Source: Deltaproteobacteria bacterium (GTDB taxonomy: Bacteria > Desulfobacterota > Syntrophia > Syntrophales > UBA2210). From it: a stretch of 34,821 nucleotides of DNA. Position 1 is the stretch's first letter, and each line of letters begins with the position of its first letter. The notes below the pieces were generated by a model that did no database searches, had not been told where the DNA came from, and saw only the letters and a list, made by a program, of their open reading frames with translations. The position numbers and the translations under genes are program-made. Below, piece after piece: positions 3,532 to 26,938 of this stretch. The stretch is from positions 1-34,821 of the forward strand of contig JAFGBH010000058.1 of the NCBI GenBank assembly GCA_016933215.1, written 5' to 3'.

Positions 3532-3646
3532 TGTAACCCTCCTCCCGGATTTCGGAATACAAAATTACTCCCATTGAAAACAGAGAGTTATATAATTTCG
3601 CATATTTTGCCCTTAGTCAAGAAAAACATTTAGCGATTTAAAGATA

Positions 3647-3674
3647 TTGACAAACGTTTCTTGACGCATATAGT
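3647..3674 (+). promoter_or_regulatory. Sigma-70 promoter for the EamA exporter gene
   Basis: TTGACA (3647-3652) and TATAGT (3669-3674) are separated by 16 bp. Transcription would begin near 3681, upstream of the proposed ATA start at 3709, which supports an N-terminus there. Confidence 0.6.
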
Positions 3675-3708
3675 TTCGGAAAAACGGTTTTAACAAAAGG
3701 GAACGGCA

Positions 3709-4662
3709 ATAAATACTATAGGCGTAAATTCAACCAGGGGATACATCTGTATAGTCATCGCCGCAATACTATGGGCCTCATCGGCGACTGCCGGAAAAGC
3801 ACTTTTCCAGACAGGAATCACGCCCATGGAACTCGTTCAGATTCGTGTCACCCTCTCGGCTGCCCTCCTCGGAATCTTCTTCGGTATTTTCAGAAGAACG
3901 CTGACACGTATCCGTATCAAGGACATCCTCTACTTTCTCCTCCTTGGAGGAGCTGCAATGGCAATGGTTCAGGTATCCTACTTTTTCGCAATCAGCAAAA
4001 TACAGGTGTCAGCCGCCATTTTATTGCAATACCTGGGAACCATACTCATTGCCGCTTATTCCATTGCCTTCTGGCATGAACGATTAACGGCTGCAAAAAT
4101 AGCGGCGCTTTTTCTCGCCATGGGGGGCTGTTTTCTGGTGGTGGGTGGATATGACCTCCATCTCCTGGAGCTGAATCGAGGGGGCATCGTATGGGGGTTG
4201 GTCTCTGCCGTTTCCTTCGCCAGCTATACACTCCTCGCAGAACGGGGGCTGCACCGCTACTCACCCTGGACCGTTATCTTTTATGCCTTTCTTTTTGCAG
4301 CACTGACACTGAACATCCTCTACAAACCGACAGCCTATCTGAAGACACCATACAGCCTTGCCCAGTGGGGATGGCTTCTCTACATTGCGATTATGGGAAC
4401 GATCATTCCCTTTGGCCTTTACCTTATGGGAGTCAGTTACATTCGCTCAACACGGGCAAGCATTACCGCCATTTTTGAACCCGTTTCGGCTGCATTGATA
4501 GCCTTTTTAGCCCTCGGGGAAATCCTCCATTCATTACAAATCATAGGGGGCATCTCGGCAATCTTCGCCATCGTCCTTCTGCAGTTGCAGCGGGAACATG
4601 ACGAGATGGCACCGGAGCTTATCCGCATGCATAAAAAAGGGGATCCCGATTGTCGGGATTAA
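3709..4662 (+). CDS. EamA/DMT-family transporter with probable ATA start codon
   Basis: Ten-helix drug/metabolite transporter of the inner membrane made of two EamA repeats; 317 residues if counted from 3709. The first in-frame ATG (3826) would delete the whole first helix, because upstream codons encode a typical EamA start (GYICIVIAAILWASSATAGK). The frame is closed by TAA at 3691 and there is no ATG, GTG or TTG between. AAAAGGGA lies six bases before an ATA at 3709, ideal spacing for an ATA start. Known relatives export amino acids or metabolites; the substrate is unknown. The last residues (GDPDCRD) and the stop lie inside dispersed repeat copy R1, so the C-terminus was probably remodelled by the repeat. 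Confidence 0.8.
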   Translation: MNTIGVNSTRGYICIVIAAILWASSATAGKALFQTGITPMELVQIRVTLSAALLGIFFGIFRRTLTRIRIKDILYFLLLGGAAMAMVQVSYFFAISKIQVSAAILLQYLGTILIAAYSIAFWHERLTAAKIAALFLAMGGCFLVVGGYDLHLLELNRGGIVWGLVSAVSFASYTLLAERGLHRYSPWTVIFYAFLFAALTLNILYKPTAYLKTPYSLAQWGWLLYIAIMGTIIPFGLYLMGVSYIRSTRASITAIFEPVSAALIAFLALGEILHSLQIIGGISAIFAIVLLQLQREHDEMAPELIRMHKKGDPDCRD

Positions 4663-4738
4663 GGAAAATGTTTGTTTCTTATTCGCTCGCTTCCCCCGTC
4701 GCATAAAGTGGGGAATGATCTCGCTCACCAGTTCACCG
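4643..4738 (+). repeat. Dispersed repeat copy R1
   Basis: First of four related copies. It begins with the small hairpin ATCCCGA-TTG-TCGGGAT, continues through TAAGGAAAAT, a T-rich stretch and ATTCGCTCGC, and ends near CTCGCTCACCAGTTCACC. It supplies the stop codon of the EamA gene. Confidence 0.7.
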
Positions 4739-20257: not shown

Positions 20258-20360
20258 GGCACCGCCATGAATTGAACAGCGAACGCATTCCCTGCTGCTT
20301 GAGGCGGTGTTAGCGAGCGAATAAAAAACAAACATTTTCCTCAATCCCGACAATCGGGAT
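20258..20360 (-). repeat. Dispersed repeat copy R2
   Basis: Reverse-oriented copy of the element at 4643. Read on the minus strand it opens ATCCCGATTGTCGGGATTGAG, passes ATTCGCTCGC, and ends near GTTCGCTGTTCAATTCATGG. It lies in the non-coding 20037-20776 interval. Confidence 0.7.
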
Positions 20361-26828: not shown

Positions 26829-26938
26829 ATTGAAGCTTCCCGCAATCCCGACTCGTCGGGATTAAGGAAAATTTTATTTTTTATTCGCTCGCTAACCCCG
26901 CTGCAAGCAACGGGGAATGCGCTCGCTGTTCAGTTCAC
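26829..26938 (+). repeat. Dispersed repeat copy R3
   Basis: The most complete copy: ATTGAAGCTTCCCGCA, hairpin ATCCCGA-CTCG-TCGGGAT, TAAGGAAAAT, T-rich stretch, ATTCGCTCGC, hairpin CCCCGCTGCAAGCAACGGGG, then GCGCTCGCTGTTCAGTTCA. It occupies part of the 26643-27070 gap. The remainder (26940-27070) shows nothing recognisable. Confidence 0.75.

Follow-up and report, generated by a model that had tools for sequence, protein, structure and literature searches.

The window, by which we mean the whole 34,821-nucleotide stretch of DNA analysed, carries a plus-strand gene of the EamA transporter family together with the following features around its start and its 3' end.

3647-3652, plus strand: -35-like hexamer TTGACA, from a promoter scan
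3669-3674, plus strand: -10-like hexamer TATAGT after a 16-base spacer, from the same scan
3691-3693, plus strand: in-frame stop codon TAA, 5' of the EamA frame, read directly from the sequence
3697-3702, plus strand: Shine-Dalgarno-like AAGGGA, six bases before ATA 3709, predicted duplex -5.3 kcal/mol, same layout in relatives L009 and L007
3709-3711, plus strand: ATA, the preferred start codon, located 11 codons ahead of the Y in the RGY motif, with Shine-Dalgarno spacing, unpaired in the predicted fold and aligned by MAFFT with a GTG of L007
3709-4662, plus strand: EamA-family transporter gene, 317 codons if the start is 3709 (PF00892, E 3.4e-40; orthologues at most 65% identical)
3718-3720, plus strand: ATA, the other possible start codon, 8 codons ahead of the same Y, in a column that holds ATG in L007, L008, L010, L038, L040 and L041
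3826-3828, plus strand: ATG, first canonical start in the EamA frame, whose use drops the conserved first 39 residues
4643-4698, plus strand: dispersed repeat overlapping the EamA 3' end and supplying the last codons and the stop of the gene

The EamA frame is closed by TAA at 4660-4662, and its 317 codons contain neither a stop nor a frameshift. Reading the frame confirmed what an earlier note on this DNA had stated, namely that no ATG, GTG or TTG lies between the TAA at 3691 and the ATG at 3826. Over all frames, the only canonical starts within 3641-3830 are TTG 3647, TTG 3661, the out-of-frame ATG 3771 and ATG 3826, with none between 3662 and 3770. Since the transcript is predicted to begin at about 3681, it would offer no canonical start before 3771. 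A frameshift from another start was ruled out because the interval between TTG 3661 and ATG 3771 is empty of canonical starts in every frame; TTG 3661 itself lies upstream of the predicted transcript start. With the Pfam EamA model (PF00892), the long frame scores 137.9 bits against a cut-off of 28.2 and matches as two EamA repeats, whereas the frame from 3826 scores 118.1 bits, 20 bits lower, so the homology does reach well 5' of that ATG, as had been proposed. The gene thus shares its two repeats with the EamA/DMT transporters (PF00892) but lacks their canonical start codon. Its product falls below the cut-offs of the NCBIfam models RhtA and YddG, and a sequence search of solved structures gave no match at 0.001.

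We collected EamA orthologues from 15 of 155 genomes of the order (E 1e-60 or better) and from 34 of 395 genomes of the phylum (1e-85 or better), both counts including the window's own genome, the closest being 65% identical. Four further loci, one of which duplicates L007, came from named draft genomes of Deltaproteobacteria/Desulfobacterales. Identity was computed against 38 of the 49 relatives, a set that contains L038 and L072 but not L012-L014 and L042-L049, which are more distant. Within residues 15-44 of the long frame, identity to these 38 orthologues is 60.0%, compared with 55.5% for the remainder of the protein. Base differences within this stretch number 339, 220 and 773 at codon positions 1, 2 and 3 (773 of 1332 at the third), and against L007 alone they number 6, 2 and 21. 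Because the differences fall mainly at third codon positions, the stretch was kept as protein, and by this comparison the DNA before ATG 3826 is coding. These data bear directly on a start at ATG 3826, which would yield a shorter protein without the first conserved segment. This codon is the first canonical one and is preceded, at a distance of 8 bases, by CAGGAA (-4.3 kcal/mol). Yet the 30 residues that precede it match the remainder in conservation across the 38 relatives, with changes mainly at third positions, the Pfam score of the frame from 3826 is 20 bits lower, and a canonical start lies well upstream in 48 of 49 relatives. ATG 3826 is thus not the ancestral start, and we ruled it out as a highly improbable present one.

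With codons numbered relative to the Y in the [RK]GY motif, a canonical start is found between codons -22 and -3 in 48 of 49 relatives (4-17 codons before Y), whereas ATG 3826 lies 28 codons after Y. Orthologues starting near 3826, which the earlier note had named as an argument against its ATA start, were therefore not what we saw. Canonical starts occur at -8, the column of ATA 3718, in 17 of the 49 relatives and at -11, the column of ATA 3709, in 14; 28 have one at either column. MAFFT aligned ATA 3709 to a GTG and ATA 3718 to an ATG, both of L007. L009 reads AAGGGA-N6-GTG and L007 reads GAGGGA-N6-GTG, a layout matching AAGGGA-N6-ATA 3709 in the window. In this alignment the window has ATA at both homologous start positions. 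The earlier proposal of a probable ATA start stands in part: a canonical start is truly missing, 3826 is contradicted by the orthologues and ATA 3709 is a reasonable choice, but the second in-frame ATA at 3718, which went unmentioned there, occupies the ATG column of several close relatives and is a homologous start position too. ATA is retained at the EamA start in none of the 49 relatives (the genomes searched included none of the same genus), making it a rare codon without conservation at this gene. One orthologue from another family, L072, has no canonical start from -22 to -3; its ATG is at -28, and AAGGAG precedes a GTC at -7.

We then looked at the signals upstream. The sigma-70 promoter that had been placed just 5' of the gene is present as TTGACA-16-TATAGT (3647-3674), with a score of 11/12, in a region where the scan gave 6 promoter-like sites versus 2.5 expected. 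AAGGGA likewise lies where it had been described, six bases before ATA 3709, though the match is only moderate. Its energy of -5.3 kcal/mol is equalled by 20% of 3000 random positions, which makes it weak evidence by itself, and 59% of 237 training starts have a Shine-Dalgarno at least as good; the element is an ordinary one. The corresponding energies are -3.9 kcal/mol at ATA 3718 and -4.3 kcal/mol at ATG 3826, and on this ground 3709 is weakly preferred over 3718. The bases 3709-3711 are unpaired in the predicted RNA fold, and structure around the EamA start showed nothing beyond chance (z -0.11).

The finding of ATG in the column of 3718 and GTG in the column of 3709 among relatives would also fit a recent loss of the start, in which an ancestral ATG or GTG became ATA and left a gene with little or no expression, a pseudogene in the making that still keeps its reading frame. 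We examined constraint in 37 sequences, leaving out the 3'-truncated L038 and L072. Where the other 36 sequences are invariant, the window carries 3 changes versus 0.65 expected (nominal P 0.028, one test, uncorrected), a mild leaning towards start loss, while three other sequences show as many such changes or more. The 3' end of the gene has, in addition, been overwritten by the dispersed repeat. Against this, all 317 codons can be read without interruption, conservation at the N-terminus is not below that of the remainder, promoter and Shine-Dalgarno are in place, and the terminal branch of the window's EamA is only the 11th longest of 37. Taken together, start loss seems an unlikely account, albeit one with appreciable weight.

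The repeat itself is about 55 bp long, is mostly headed ATCCCGANNNTCGGGAT and occurs in some 40 copies in the genome, three of them in the window (4643-4698, 20312-20360 and 26845-26900). The copy at the EamA 3' end resembles a minus-strand terminator.

An ordinary start could also be masked by a base error at 3709-3711 or 3720. A single wrong base, at 3711 or 3720, would be enough, and the source genome is a 102-contig draft assembly. Such an error, however, would have to fall on one of a handful of bases in a gene that shows no other lesion. In the sampled part of the genome, 49 regions with homologues were compared, and none has a clear frameshift or nonsense lesion; 6 were flagged, and these we judged to be shadow-frame or paralogue matches. 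Moreover, two further odd starts of this genome, the ATA of infC and the CTG of rdgB, are found again in other genomes, so that the odd starts here are not all errors. We consider a base error unlikely too, with nearly as much weight as start loss.

The infC locus, looked up on purpose, reads TAA ACC TTC AGG AGG TGG CAC ATA GCT (L079, C71), with a very strong Shine-Dalgarno of -15 kcal/mol. Across the order, 31 loci were compared, the one of this genome and 30 others (L180-L209) read among 57 other genomes with a match; at the position set by the Shine-Dalgarno, 25 of them carry ATA and 6 carry ATC. By comparison, then, this lineage does appear to start infC with ATA, which makes AUA initiation plausible at the EamA gene as well. 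The rare infC start is expected to serve autoregulation by IF3. Gene finders likely mis-start infC in this order.

The rdgB/Ham1 gene (L086:6006 = C44:26006) has no canonical start either and carries CTG at the site. The same CTG is found in one other genus of the family (L217), and four relatives have GTG at the same place; in all six (2 CTG and 4 GTG, 6 of 17 loci) the codon shares bases with the stop that ends the upstream frame, in the form NTGA. We infer that CTG is the rdgB start. The selD frame (L084) reads on past a TGA (C61:84518-84520) that precedes ACKIGPGDL, and in two relatives the corresponding frame opens behind a stop. This TGA is probably a selenocysteine codon, and the organism thus likely makes selenoproteins. 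In a separate observation from our own reading, peroxiredoxin-like frames in L132 (near 9580) and L145 (near 6509), from the relatives G005 and G059, have a conserved ATEISAVAEKF right after a stop, a probable selenocysteine codon too.

We took a census of 332 selected ORF-genes in 20 stretches plus the window, covering 424,621 of the 2,685,877 bases of the genome; the infC locus falls outside this sample. A gap of 20 codons or more separates the upstream stop from the first canonical start in 55 of the 332, and inspection by eye found conserved protein ahead of that start in 3 of these: EamA, rdgB and selD. Comparison of N-termini with parts of three other genomes covered 49 comparable genes and flagged 3, of which, on our own reading, only selD is real. 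A coding-potential model for finding further odd starts gave about 0.25 bit per codon, which is too weak, and was near zero at the EamA N-terminus. The broader idea that this bacterial family tolerates non-canonical starts unusually widely (ATA at infC and EamA, CTG at rdgB in two genera), with a small set of genes besides infC coupled to IF3 through their start codons and truncated or missed by gene finders, strikes us as quite doubtful.

Starts of this kind are known elsewhere. In other bacteria, infC starts with AUU, AUC or AUA (PMC5472188, PMC13009471), and the ATA and ATC starts of the order fit that pattern. According to the available part of PMC13009471, Staphylococcus aureus uses AUA at infC, ccpN and citZ, and ccpN and citZ reporters with AUA gave about 10% of AUG output, rising for ccpN up to 30% in rich medium. 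The EamA gene shares with these the codon AUA, the lack of a canonical start in place and a prediction of weak initiation. In contrast, the S. aureus cases are backed by ribosome profiling, plus reporters for ccpN and citZ; infC and ccpN there have extended Shine-Dalgarno sequences, and the rare ccpN start is common to B. subtilis, whereas the EamA Shine-Dalgarno is moderate and its ATA is not conserved (PMC13009471, as far as its available part goes). The infC gene, ATA-started in the same genome and mostly so in the order, differs by its very strong Shine-Dalgarno and deeply conserved rare codon. Streptomyces sigR, which starts with GTC, resembles EamA in being one gene outside infC that has a non-canonical start while its genome is otherwise normal, but its start was experimentally shown and tied to IF3 regulation, in what is available of PMC5472188. 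Among 61,358 reconstructed ancestral AUG starts, 363 changed to GUG, 113 to UUG, 2 to CUG and 1 to AUU; AUA is not mentioned in the available text of that study, whose reconstructions rest on annotation, where such codons are rarely allowed (PMC5622118).

Used AUA, lost start and base error all predict what is seen at this locus. Our preferred reading, to which we give a probability of roughly 0.55, is that of a functional gene of the EamA family (drug/metabolite transporter superfamily) translated from an AUA, with 3709 as the most likely position and 3718 as a possible one. The promoter would yield a transcript whose leader measures about 27 nt, on which AAGGGA would position the 30S subunit at the AUA. 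The initiator tRNA would read this codon with a third-base mismatch, and because IF3 disfavours such a mismatch, the protein would be made at a low level; judging from the published cases, output might rise when IF3 activity is low. The intact frame, the conserved N-terminus, the promoter and Shine-Dalgarno in place and a lineage that appears to start infC with AUA all argue for use of the AUA. The ordinary Shine-Dalgarno, unlike the very strong ones of infC and the extended ones of S. aureus, speaks against it, as do the surplus changes at invariant sites, which hint at relaxed constraint. Since the conservation of the rare codon seen in the best known cases is missing, we grade the EamA AUA start as a candidate rather than a demonstrated member of the AUA-initiated genes.

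Gene finders as a rule consider just ATG, GTG and TTG, so a gene of this type is called 39 codons short and loses its first conserved segment. If the AUA is not used, the locus would be a clean example of start-codon loss or of draft-genome error. If it is truly used, the transporter would join the short list of bacterial genes whose start codon keeps their expression low, and would do so in a lineage with an AUA-started infC. AUA starts with weak expression are already known in S. aureus, as the available part of PMC13009471 describes, and EamA is a new candidate beside them.
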